This document shows, one piece after another, positions 8,104 through 34,702 of a stretch of 38,466 nucleotides of DNA (positions within the stretch are counted from its first letter, which is position 1; every line of letters starts with the position of its first letter). The notes beneath the pieces were generated by a model that was not told the DNA's origin, did not search any database, and saw only the letters and a list, made by a program, of their open reading frames with translations. The stretch is taken from assembly GCA_947165825.1 (NCBI GenBank), contig CAMVBX010000006.1, forward strand, positions 1 to 38,466, in the 5' to 3' direction. The position numbers and the translations under genes were made by a program. The stretch comes from an uncultured Clostridia bacterium. Lineage in GTDB: Bacteria > Bacillota > Clostridia > Oscillospirales > Oscillospiraceae.

Positions 8104-8424
8104 TATCGGCAAAGCCCCGCCCGACACGGGGCAGAGCCGCACTAGTCGGGGAGATAGCGGTGCCCTGTACCTGCAAACCGCTACAGCAGGGATGAATTCC
8201 CGCCCCCGGCCCTTTGGTGTGTTGTCTGCTCCCTGTAAGCAGTAATGACGGACCGGTCTTGCGCAACGCGGCCCCGTGAACCATGTCAGGCGGGAGACCG
8301 AGCAGCATTAAGCGGTGCGCCACGTGTGCCGCAAGGCAGCCGGTCCCGAGCCGGCTGCAGGGATACCGAACGGATCAGAGCGGTCAAAGGCGGGTGTGCG
8401 GTTCTGCCCTTTGCCGGGGCGGGC
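8104..8424 (+). ncRNA. ffs: Large bacterial signal recognition particle RNA (scRNA, with Alu domain)
   Basis: Alu-domain text CACTAGTCGGGGAGATAGCGGTGCCCTGTACCTGCAAACCGCTACAGCAGGGATGAATTCCC closely resembles Bacillus-type scRNA; S-domain CCATGTCAGGCGGGAGACCGAGCAGCATTAAG; 5'/3' ends pair; lies directly upstream of dnaX; T-run follows. 5' end approximate. Confidence 0.93.
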
Positions 8425-31311: not shown

Positions 31312-33498
31312 ATGGAGCATAGACGACTGGAGCTGGCCCTGTACGGAAAGGGCGGCATCGGCAAGTCCACGGTCAGCGCAAACCTCTCCGCCGCCCTGGC
31401 GGCGGCGGGCAGCCGGGTTCTGCAGGTGGGCTGCGATCCCAAGCATGATTCCACCCGGCTGCTCCTGGGAGGCGGGAGTCTCCCCACGGTGCTGGATTAT
31501 CTGCGGACCGTGCCCAGGGAGCAGGAAAGGCTGGATGCGGTGCTCCGCACGGGCTGGGGCAAGATCGGCTGCGTGGAGGCCGGCGGACCGAAGCCCGGCG
31601 TGGGCTGCGCGGGCCGGGGCATCATCACCGCCTTTGAATTTCTGGAGCGCCATCGGGCAAAGGCGAATTATGACGTTCTGATCTACGACGTGCTGGGGGA
31701 CGTGGTCTGCGGCGGCTTCGCCGTGCCCATCCGCCGGGAATATGCCGACGCGGTTTTTCTGGTGACCAGCGGAGAATTCATGGCCCTGTACGCCGCAAAC
31801 AATATTCTCCGGGGGATCCGGAATTTTGACGGCGGGGAATGCCGCCGCGCGGCGGGGATCATCTTCAATGCGCGGAACCTGTCCGGGGAGGCGGAGCGGG
31901 TGGAACGCTTCGCCCGGGCGGTGGGACTGCCCATCGTGGCCCGTGTCCCACGGAGCGAGGCCTTCGCCCGGGGAGAGGAGGCGGGAAAACCCCTCCTTGC
32001 CTTGGAAGGCTATGATCGGGAGAAGGCGGTATTCACCCGCCTGGCGGAGACGATCCGCAGCGGTCTGACCCTGTATGAAGCCCGCCCTCTAGAGGATGAA
32101 GCCCTGGAGGAGGTGGTGCTCCGCGGCGGCACCGCGGCTCCGGCTGCGGCTGCGGAACCGACTCCGGAACCGCAGCAGAAAGCAAAGACTTCCGATCCGG
32201 CCCCGGCGCCGGACGAACCCCGGATGCCGCTGTACGGCTGCGCCTTCAACGGCGCCGCCACCACGGCGGTCCACCTGACGGACGCGCTGGTGATCGCCCA
32301 TTCTCCCCGGTCCTGCGCCTTCTATACCTGGCAGAATATCAGCTCCCCCGGACGGCGGAATCTGTTCAACCGGGGGATCCTCATGCCCTCTGCCATCAGC
32401 CCGGGCTTCGAAACCACGGAAATCGGCCATGCCGAGGCGGTATTCGGCGGCGTGGAGAAGCTCAGGGCGCAGGTGGAGCGGGCCTTGGAGCGAAAGCCCG
32501 GGGCGGTGGTGGTGATCAGTTCCTGCGTCAGCGGGATCATCGGGGACGATCTCCTCAGCCTGGAGCGCCTCTCCACCCCGGAAACTCCGGTGATCGCCGT
32601 ACCGGCGGACGGAGTCCTGGGCGGGGACTATATGGAAGGGATCCGACTTTGCCTCCACACCCTGGCGGAGAAGCTGGTGCGTCGGGACGCGCCACTCCGG
32701 CCCAGGACGGTGAACCTCATCGGCGAGGTGGGGGTGAGCAACAATACCCAGGTGGACTATCAGACCCTGCGCCGTCTTCTGGGGGAAATGGGGATCTCCA
32801 TCGGCTGCCGCTTCCTGGGGGACTGTACGGCGCAGGAGCTGCGGGATCTGCTGAGCGCGCCGCTGAACCTTCTGGCCACGGACAGCCAGGACAATCTGGA
32901 GCTGAAGGCGTGGCTGGAAACGGAATACGGCTGCCGTTTCCACCCGGGCTGCCTGCCCATCGGTTTCCGGGCCACCCGGAATTTCCTCCTGGAGCTGGGG
33001 GACTTCTTCGGCTGCCGGGAGGAGGCGGAGGCCCTGATTTCCCGGGAAGAAGCGGATTACCGGCGGGAGATCGAAAGCCTTCGGCCTCTGCTGCAGGGAA
33101 AACGCATCCTGATGACCACCATCAACGCCAATCTGGACTGGCTCCTGGATGCGGCGGAGGACTGCGGCATGGAGTTCGTGTGGATCGGCGTGCTGAATTA
33201 TCTCCACCGGGAACTGCGGATCACGGACCGGCAGGAGCGGAATGCCGTCATCCGGGAGATCACCGGGGGAGATATCGTGGAACAGCGCATTCGGGAGCTG
33301 AAGCCGGATATGGTCCTGGGAAACTACACCGCCCGGGCGGAGGGCGGAGAGTATATCGCGGATACGCTGCCCATGACCCAGCCCATCGGCTTCGGCTCCG
33401 GGCTGACGGTCCTGCGCCGCTGGGCGCAGCTGAACAAGAACGAAAGAGAGGGGGAGTGGGAGCATGACCGGGTCTGGTTTGAACAGTATTTTGCCTGA
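31312..33498 (+). CDS. Nitrogenase-like fusion: NifH-type reductase ATPase + NifD-like component 1 subunit
   Basis: NifH part: ALYGKGGIGKSTVSANLSAAL...QVGCDPKHDSTRLLL...CVEAGGPKPGVGCAGRGIITAFEFLE (Cys99)...YDVLGDVVCGGFAVPIR (Cys133). Linker GGTAAPAAAAEPTPEPQQKAKTSDPAPAPDEPRM. NifD-like part: YGCAFNGAATTAVHLTDALVIAHSPRSCAFYTW (Cys310, Cys335)...VVISSCVSGIIGDDL (Cys405). Confidence 0.93.
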   Translation: MEHRRLELALYGKGGIGKSTVSANLSAALAAAGSRVLQVGCDPKHDSTRLLLGGGSLPTVLDYLRTVPREQERLDAVLRTGWGKIGCVEAGGPKPGVGCAGRGIITAFEFLERHRAKANYDVLIYDVLGDVVCGGFAVPIRREYADAVFLVTSGEFMALYAANNILRGIRNFDGGECRRAAGIIFNARNLSGEAERVERFARAVGLPIVARVPRSEAFARGEEAGKPLLALEGYDREKAVFTRLAETIRSGLTLYEARPLEDEALEEVVLRGGTAAPAAAAEPTPEPQQKAKTSDPAPAPDEPRMPLYGCAFNGAATTAVHLTDALVIAHSPRSCAFYTWQNISSPGRRNLFNRGILMPSAISPGFETTEIGHAEAVFGGVEKLRAQVERALERKPGAVVVISSCVSGIIGDDLLSLERLSTPETPVIAVPADGVLGGDYMEGIRLCLHTLAEKLVRRDAPLRPRTVNLIGEVGVSNNTQVDYQTLRRLLGEMGISIGCRFLGDCTAQELRDLLSAPLNLLATDSQDNLELKAWLETEYGCRFHPGCLPIGFRATRNFLLELGDFFGCREEAEALISREEADYRREIESLRPLLQGKRILMTTINANLDWLLDAAEDCGMEFVWIGVLNYLHRELRITDRQERNAVIREITGGDIVEQRIRELKPDMVLGNYTARAEGGEYIADTLPMTQPIGFGSGLTVLRRWAQLNKNEREGEWEHDRVWFEQYFA

Positions 33499-34702
33499 CT
33501 GCACCACCGGCGCCATCTTTGCGGTGGAGGGGATCCAAAACGCCGTGGTGCTGCTGAACGGACCCATGGGCTGCCGCTTCTACCACAGCACCACCTCCCG
33601 TTTCCTCACCATCCGCCCGCTGCTCCGTCTGCCTGAGGAGGAGGGGAAAGACCCCAGGCCGGTGGATTACAACACCCTGAACAACTGGTTCTTCCGCCAG
33701 GAGCGGGTGCCCTGTACCTGGCTGGACGGACGGGACTTTGTGTACGGGACGAAGGACAAGGTGCTGGAGGCTCTGGCCTATATCCGGGATCACGTGGCCT
33801 TCGACCTCCTGGCCATCGTGGATTCCCCCGGAGCCTCCCTCATCGGGGACGCGCTCCTGGAGCCAGCCCGGGGTATCCTGGGGGATAAGGTCGTGCTGCT
33901 GGAATCTCCGGGGTGGTCCGCCTCCTTTGAAGACGGCGCCTCCTATGCCGCCCTGGAGCTGCTGCGGAAGGGCGTCAGACTTCACCGTACCGGGGAAAGG
34001 AGAGAAGGGAAGTCCGTGAATCTTCTGGGCTTCAATCTCTGGCAGCGGTACCAGGAAGGGGATATCCTGGAAATGAAACGGCTCCTGGAGCTCTGCGGGA
34101 TCGGGGTCAACGCGGTCCTTTGCGCGGGCTGCAGTCTTCCCGAGCTGGAGCGGATGCCGGAGGCTGACCTGAACCTGGTGGTCTACCCGGAGCTGGGGCT
34201 GGACTGCGCCGGATACCTGGAGGAAGCCTGGGGCATGCCGTACTTTGTCTGCCCCACTCTGCCCGTGGGCTTCCGGGCGACGGAGGAGCTTCTGGAGGAA
34301 CTGTGCCGCCGGCTGGGGATGGATCCCGCCCCGGCCCTGGAGGACAGCCGTCGGGCCAGGGCCCTGGCCTGGTACAAGATCCGGGATATCCAGCAGAGCT
34401 ACGGCAGGCCCAGGGGTGTCCGATTCCACGTGGATATCGGCCCCAGCGCGGATAAGGCCTATACCGCATTTCTCCGGGATTACCTGGCGATGGAGCCCTC
34501 GCCGCCGGGGGAGGCGGAGCTGGTGTTTTCCGACGCAAACGTCATCGCGGAGCTGATGCTGGAGAACAAGCGCTTCTGCGGCATCGAAGCCCGGATGCCC
34601 GGCATGGGCTATACGGATCTGATCCCCAAGACCCATCTGGGGGTGCAGGGCGCCCTGTTTCTCATCGAACAGGTCTTGAACGGCCTGATGAGCAAAATCT
34701 GA
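33464..34702 (+). CDS. Nitrogenase component 1-like protein (NifK/NifE-like)
   Basis: LPDCTTGAIFAVEGIQNAVVLLNGPMGCRFYHSTTSRFL (Cys13, Cys37)...FDLLAIVDSPGASLIGDAL...CPTLPVGFRATEELLEEL...WYKIRDIQQSYGRPRGVRFHVDIGPSADKAYTAFLRDYLAMEP...KTHLGVQGALFLIEQVLNGLM; overlaps upstream ORF by 35 bp. Confidence 0.88.
   Translation: MTGSGLNSILPDCTTGAIFAVEGIQNAVVLLNGPMGCRFYHSTTSRFLTIRPLLRLPEEEGKDPRPVDYNTLNNWFFRQERVPCTWLDGRDFVYGTKDKVLEALAYIRDHVAFDLLAIVDSPGASLIGDALLEPARGILGDKVVLLESPGWSASFEDGASYAALELLRKGVRLHRTGERREGKSVNLLGFNLWQRYQEGDILEMKRLLELCGIGVNAVLCAGCSLPELERMPEADLNLVVYPELGLDCAGYLEEAWGMPYFVCPTLPVGFRATEELLEELCRRLGMDPAPALEDSRRARALAWYKIRDIQQSYGRPRGVRFHVDIGPSADKAYTAFLRDYLAMEPSPPGEAELVFSDANVIAELMLENKRFCGIEARMPGMGYTDLIPKTHLGVQGALFLIEQVLNGLMSKI

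Follow-up and report, generated by a model that had tools for sequence, protein, structure and literature searches.

The 38,466-nucleotide stretch of contig CAMVBX010000006.1 from an uncultured gut member of the Oscillospiraceae (hereafter, the window: the whole stretch of DNA analysed) encodes two adjacent genes that, judging from sequence and genomic context, probably constitute a previously uncharacterised nitrogenase-like, ATP-dependent reductase of vitamin B12 metabolism. The first gene (HD; 31312..33498, on the forward strand, as are all the domains and residues located below) is an open reading frame (ORF) that codes for a NifH-NifD fusion protein of 728 aa, and the second (K; 33464..34702), which overlaps HD by 35 bases, codes for a NifK-like subunit of 412 aa (PF00148, 3e-40); the pair is denoted HDK. 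Genomic evidence lends good support to the link with B12. In several lineages, HDK is part of the cobalamin regulon, which indicates the class of substrate, a point missed by the initial annotation of this DNA, made from the sequence alone. The best overall explanation, to which we assign about an even chance of being correct, is that HDK would be an ATP-driven reductase with a cluster held by three alpha and one beta cysteines (3+1), acting on a corrinoid and most likely converting Co(II) to Co(I).

In Pfam, the fusion protein matches Fer4_NifH (residues 8-269, 1e-84) and Oxidored_nitro (residues 310-695, 2e-65). The NifH-like Fe-protein domain (31333..32118) contains the P-loop GKGGIGKS as well as Cys99 and Cys133, which are kept in 69/69 HD sequences and are, by homology, the putative ligands of its 4Fe-4S cluster. 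HD thus combines a NifH domain with the P-loop and the two cluster cysteines by which nitrogenase-like ATP-dependent reductases are recognised. The NifD-like catalytic domain (32239..33396) is delineated by the Pfam match and the AlphaFold model. Neither HD nor K reaches any of the NCBIfam equivalog cut-offs for nitrogenase, dark-operative protochlorophyllide oxidoreductase (DPOR), chlorophyllide a oxidoreductase (COR), CfbC/D or scaffold proteins.

Ligand conservation was counted over 69 HD and 70 K sequences from Clostridia, Coriobacteriia, Desulfobacterota and Methanosarcina, the median pairwise identity of the K proteins in this set being 43%. The three NifD-type cysteines singled out in the initial annotation, at spacings of 25 and 70 residues, are present in the ORF and in 69/69 relatives, and alignment with reference proteins identifies them as alpha cluster ligand 1 (Cys310, 32239..32241, aligned with the respective Cys of BchY, NifD and MarD), ligand 2 (Cys335, 32314..32316) and ligand 3 (Cys405, 32524..32526). 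On the beta side, the only invariant cluster cysteine is Cys37 of K (33572..33574; 69/70, with one gap), in the column of BchZ Cys35, BchB Asp36 and NifK Cys95. At this level of sequence divergence, the conservation of these four residues is not due to chance.

The remaining beta sites required correction. The initial annotation had counted Cys13 (33500..33502) together with Cys37 as the first two beta ligands; both are present in the K protein of the window, but Cys13 is found only there and in its two nearest relatives (3/70 rows, with Ser in 46, Gly in 10 and Ala in 9), and site 1 corresponds instead to the invariant Asp12 (33497..33499; Asp in 68/68 rows with a residue), the equivalent of NifK Cys70. 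Asp12 aligns without gaps with the first P-cluster Cys of NifK, 25 positions ahead of the second and with Gly-Ala at +4/+5, and aligns also with Cys310 of D. There is some ambiguity here, in that the MarK-type spacing of 24 would match residue 13, which is mostly Ser; under either alignment, site 1 of K holds no conserved cysteine. The motif VDSPGASLIGD (K residues 119-129) is present and contains no Cys, as previously noted, but the residue given for the third site, Ser121 (conserved in 63/70), is one position off: the equivalent of NifK Cys153 is Pro122 (33827..33829; 70/70), an assignment anchored by the ungapped IGD motif. The D-to-K alignment is gap-free at all three sites, with C310/C335/C405 of D matching D12/C37/P122 of K. 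Given Asp at site 1 and Pro at site 3, the conserved set comprises 3+1 cysteines rather than 3+2; the five cysteines are real in the closest group of the window, where Cys13 sits beside site 1, and are lineage-specific rather than family-wide. Two further conserved residues are His41 of K, four positions past Cys37 (33584..33586; 70/70), and a nearly invariant extra cysteine of HD, Cys499 (32806..32808; 65/69), to which no role is assigned.

The corresponding alpha-type sites are C29/C54/C115 in BchN and C76/C101/C159 in BchY, and the beta-type sites are P11/D36/C95 in BchB, G10/C35/S94 in BchZ, C12/C36/C96 in MarK-like proteins and C23/C48/C106 in NifK (Nitratidesulfovibrio numbering; BchY and BchZ are from R. 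litoralis). The four conserved cysteines of HDK, three alpha and one beta, which map to the predicted inter-subunit cluster site, reproduce the BchY/BchZ pattern, suggestive of a COR-type [4Fe-4S] cluster rather than a P-cluster. The original proposal of an asymmetric Fe-S cluster as in dark-operative reductases is supported once the beta residues are corrected, with the pattern being that of COR rather than DPOR.

The lack of recognisable Cys and His ligands of the iron-molybdenum cofactor (FeMo-co), also proposed initially, is borne out across the family. The column of NifD Cys275 is occupied by Thr523 of HD (32878..32880), which is variable, and no conserved Cys is found at this site in D; the segment ATDSQDNLEL begins at residue 522 of the fusion, and ADTLPMTQPIGFGSG begins at residue 683. 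The nearly invariant Asp684 (33361..33363; 67/69) lies in the region compared with the NifD His442 loop and may be the equivalent of His442. No conserved His was detected past D residue 330, i.e., in the C-terminal half, in the 69 HD sequences; such a broad test matters because His429 of methylthio-alkane reductase (MAR), which is located in a different loop, once escaped sequence analysis (PMC12552129). Furthermore, NifB was not found in 11/13 HDK carrier genomes, including those that are 90-97% complete (the genome of the window is 73% complete), and these hosts are therefore not expected to supply the large carbide cluster found in nitrogenase and MAR. Among the 13 carriers, NifB is present only in Sporobacter, alongside other nitrogenase-like genes of its own (the hosts of L080/L081, G220/G298, combine HDK and NifB with several further nitrogenase-like matches). 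With the ligand sites absent and NifB mostly lacking, the suggestion of a cofactor other than FeMo-co is supported; the alignments reveal neither a third beta cysteine nor a Cys or His at the FeMo-co sites, the two features that the annotation itself had named as contradicting it. In the AlphaFold models (pLDDT 86 for each of D and K), the nearest solved fold for K is BchB of DPOR, followed by MarK, and the best fold matches of D are NifD and NifE.

A single profile-based scan, covering 84,980 species genomes, identified 78 loci of this family, in rumen and termite-gut Oscillospiraceae and Lachnospiraceae, other Clostridia, Coriobacteriia and Desulfobacterota, and further in Methanosarcina, Methanolobus, SAR324 and Thermoleophilia; cultured hosts include Desulfocicer vacuolatum, Desulfatibacillum alkenivorans, Desulfobulbus elongatus, Sporobacter termitidis and Methanolobus psychrotolerans. 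HD is matched in 74/78 loci, and NifH and NifD are fused wherever the gene is intact. When the family is placed in a tree alongside BchN/B/Y/Z, NifD/K/E/N and MAR/Nfl proteins, all D sequences group in one clade and all K sequences in another (100/100 each), both on long stems; where the Bch sequences attach is uncertain, as their branches are long. Among open-licence papers, none was found that joins 'cobalamin riboswitch' with 'nitrogenase-like' or that describes the HD fusion in its title or abstract.

The connection to B12 comes from the regulation and neighborhoods of HDK. A same-strand cobalamin riboswitch is located upstream of HDK in four lineages. In L087, the riboswitch precedes HD by 166 bases with nothing between, and only HD-K follows; in L081, one gene intervenes; in L109, the riboswitch opens an operon of energy-coupling factor (ECF) transporter genes, a DUF4430 protein, HD, K and an ECF S component; and in L112, a TonB receptor lies between the riboswitch and HD, where co-transcription is likely but not certain given the 247-base gap before HD. 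Altogether, 62 HDK loci encompass 17 riboswitches in 0.95 Mb against 1.7 expected from the genome-wide density in the hosts, a roughly 10-fold enrichment that may be somewhat high because the background used stricter filters, and in which the raw count is inflated by the clustering of switches in L086 and L107. By locus, 9/62 contain at least one riboswitch against 1.6 expected (p ~4e-5). Cobalamin riboswitches occur in the genomes of all 11 near carriers. As for the two clusters, L086 (contig DHER01000084.1) has four cobalamin riboswitches in 17 kb, upstream of anaerobic-ribonucleotide-reductase-like and MoxR-like AAA genes among others, and L107 (Emergencia sp.), where three cobalamin riboswitches surround a K gene missing its N-terminal portion and HD was not found, looks like a decaying copy.

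Genes of corrinoid metabolism recur next to HDK: CobN, above the NCBIfam cobaltochelatase cut-off, in L089, L090 and L103; permeases that score best as BtuC in L089 and L111; CbiK, adjoining K in Methanolobus (L111); CobT in L121; and CobW with DUF3786 in L092. Other neighbors are DUF1636 (L103), DUF1638 (L099) and a ChlI/D-like AAA protein (L090). In addition, TIM-barrel proteins of one sequence cluster flank HDK in L067, L081 and L089, with an AP_endonuc_2 match in L089; no NCBIfam model matched the AP_endonuc_2 protein at these three loci. The cobamide hydrolase CbiR belongs to the AP_endonuc_2 superfamily (PMC7733943), so the flanking protein may be a cobamide-processing partner, which we offer as a lead only.

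Carriers of HDK also tend to synthesise corrinoids. In the family of the window (301 genomes, 13 HDK carriers and 288 non-carriers), CbiD is encoded in 12/13 carriers vs 102/288 (35%) non-carriers (Fisher p 5e-5, not corrected for kinship) or, by genus, in 6/6 carrier genera vs 55/106 (p ~0.02); in the wider scan, the sample of which partly overlaps this one, CbiD is found in 39/50 carriers. The genome of the window itself encodes CbiD, a CbiJ-CbiE-CbiT fusion (at L161, G000:C12, 5830-7818), CobQ and BtuR, and has five cobalamin riboswitches over the cut-off. HDK is nevertheless optional, with corrinoid makers that lack it being common, congeners included.

We hypothesize that the NifH domain would deliver ATP-gated electrons to the 3+1 cluster, expected to be an all-Cys [4Fe-4S] at the inter-subunit site, and from there to a tetrapyrrole seated in the cavity vacated by FeMo-co. 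This tetrapyrrole would be a corrinoid, and the most likely reaction the reduction of its Co(II) to Co(I), which is required at very low potential for adenosylation or re-activation. The assignment of the step to cobalt reduction is tentative, with doubt slightly outweighing confidence; it is favored because the HDK contexts cover both synthesis and uptake, to which cobalt reduction is common, and the Co(I) step would suit corrinoids made via CobN, made de novo or imported alike. An ATP-driven reductase operating at very low potential is chemically apt for producing Co(I), which fits HDK, and the activation complex of methyl-coenzyme M reductase provides a precedent for ATP-driven reduction of the metal in a tetrapyrrole (PMC12176620). 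Within the nitrogenase superfamily, HDK could then be the first enzyme that serves vitamin B12 metabolism, as an ATP-driven corrinoid reductase that is self-contained, with the donor ATPase fused to the catalytic subunit, and that fills the ill-defined step of low-potential cobalt reduction in anaerobic bacteria and archaea, a proposal that we consider plausible but somewhat less than evenly poised. Three narrower roles did not stand: replacement of the cobalt-precorrin-6A reductase CbiJ is rejected given that CbiJ is present in 12/13 carriers; a tie to the loss of BtuR is unsupported (p 0.22); and re-activation of corrinoid-binding proteins as a general role is disfavored by G060 (95% complete), which has HDK and CbiD and yields no match to B12-binding domains.

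Several observations weigh against the B12 reading. No riboswitch is present in the window itself, no corrinoid gene was found beside its HDK, and the loci of the nearest rumen relatives likewise yielded no riboswitch, so for the window the role in B12 metabolism is derived from relatives and from the rest of its genome. Most HDK loci are stand-alone two-gene units, and the CbiD association carries no correction for kinship. About 11/50 carriers in the wider scan are without CbiD, some probably through incompleteness, and about one third of carriers lack a known adenosyltransferase. Within corrinoid makers, HDK shows no association with BtuR (8/12 vs 45/102, p 0.22), which leaves a link to adenosylation without support. 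The AlphaFold models, finally, are those of monomers. Apart from HDK, BtuR (PF02572) was not seen in 61/114 CbiD-positive genomes of the family of the window, and PF01923 is absent from 11/11 HDK carriers tested, such that this family may contain a corrinoid adenosyltransferase that has so far escaped recognition.

Among other possible roles, HDK might be a ring reductase of the corrinoid pathway or of tetrapyrroles, in the manner of DPOR, COR and CfbCD, either reducing a C=C bond in a cobalt-tetrapyrrole intermediate or producing a modified tetrapyrrole. The COR-like 3+1 cluster, BchB as the nearest fold of K, the best score of the H domain with CfbC and the chelatases adjoining HDK (CobN, CbiK and ChlI/D-like AAA) all point in this direction; however, the obvious vacancy, CbiJ, is filled in 12/13 carriers, the contexts in L109, L111 and L112 are those of uptake rather than ring synthesis, and some carriers have no CbiD, which makes a ring reductase unlikely. 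The riboswitch preceding HD-K alone in L087, and that upstream of the anaerobic-ribonucleotide-reductase-like gene in the same stretch of L086, would be compatible with a B12-independent stand-in for a B12-dependent enzyme, induced when B12 is short. Such a function is harder to credit and appears decidedly improbable given that HDK occurs mostly in corrinoid-making genomes and shares operons with corrinoid importers and chelatases.

Two further alternatives fare worse. FeoAB is encoded two genes downstream in the window, FeoB occurs near L055, L118 and L120, and CobN-like proteins elsewhere can act on haem, so HDK could conceivably liberate the iron of haem or of some other ferric chelate during anaerobic iron uptake. 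Yet FeoB is found near only 4/79 loci and at neither locus of the two nearest relatives, the riboswitches detected are of the cobalamin type, BtuC is the top-scoring assignment for the permeases, and CobN exceeds the cobaltochelatase cut-off, all of which renders iron release very improbable. Still less credible is a conventional enzyme of the Nfl or MAR type that carries a P-cluster together with a NifB-derived one: MarK is the best match of K among solved sequences, and a MAR ligand was once overlooked by sequence analysis (PMC12552129), but HDK has only 4/6 P-cluster cysteines and no equivalents of Cys270/His429, falls in a separate clade, and NifB is absent from 11/13 carriers.

The nitrogenase-like enzymes known so far target N2, C-S bonds, chlorophyll precursors or the F430 precursor. 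If HDK indeed reduces corrinoids, the superfamily would extend to the last major modified tetrapyrrole, and anaerobes, in which low-potential corrinoid reduction is hard to assign, would gain a concrete enzyme for this step. In nifH-based surveys of rumen and termite gut, these H domains may be mistaken for those of nitrogen fixers.

As for the surroundings of HDK, the genes downstream of it in the window encode an M42 peptidase and the FeoA-FeoB fusion, and those upstream, in divergent orientation, a DUF218 protein, a protein of the Na+/H+ antiporter family and a nitroreductase. The rest of the window consists of ordinary genes, with no corrinoid gene recognised among them, and includes a bacterial large signal recognition particle RNA (8137-8401) upstream of a DnaX-like gene. 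Elsewhere, the Treponema saccharophilum plasmid pTS2 (L132) carries two nitrogenase-like pairs, NifX-like proteins and an ABC transporter adjoining a type I-C CRISPR system.

Compared with known systems, HDK resembles NifDK/NifEN in that these are the best profile and fold matches of the D domain, but it lacks the full set of six P-cluster cysteines and both Cys275 and His442, and NifB is missing in most tested carriers. In the PDB, the sequence that K matches best is that of MarK, linking HDK to MAR (MarHDK) and NflDK; MAR, however, has six P-cluster cysteines and an [Fe8S9C] cluster on Cys270/His429 (PMC12552129), whereas HDK is devoid of two beta cysteines, both cofactor ligands and, in most tested hosts, NifB. 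The Ni-sirohydrochlorin a,c-diamide reductase CfbC/CfbD shares tetrapyrrole chemistry with the proposed activity, and the H domain scores best with CfbC, albeit below the cut-off (298 of 402 bits; 31 of 268 for methan_mark_13, with a weak local match of D). CfbD is a homodimer, whereas HDK has two unlike subunits and a B12 rather than an F430 context.

DPOR (BchL/BchN-BchB) provides the nearest fold of K and likewise has an asymmetric cluster site, but the fourth ligand site is Asp36 in BchB and Cys37 in K (69/70), identity is ~20%, and the BchN, BchB and BchL models stay below their cut-offs (at best 91.8 of 490 bits for BchB and 203 of 345 for BchL). COR (BchX/BchY-BchZ) shares with HDK the three alpha and the single beta cysteine at the same aligned sites, the ATP-driven NifH-type reductase and the lack of FeMo-co ligands. 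Unlike COR, which has Gly and Ser at beta sites 1 and 3, K has Asp12 and Pro122, NifH is fused to D, the hosts are mostly non-phototrophic anaerobes, the context is cobalamin rather than bacteriochlorophyll, the clade is distinct and the COR models are not reached (197 of 331 bits for BchX and 47 of 529 for BchZ).

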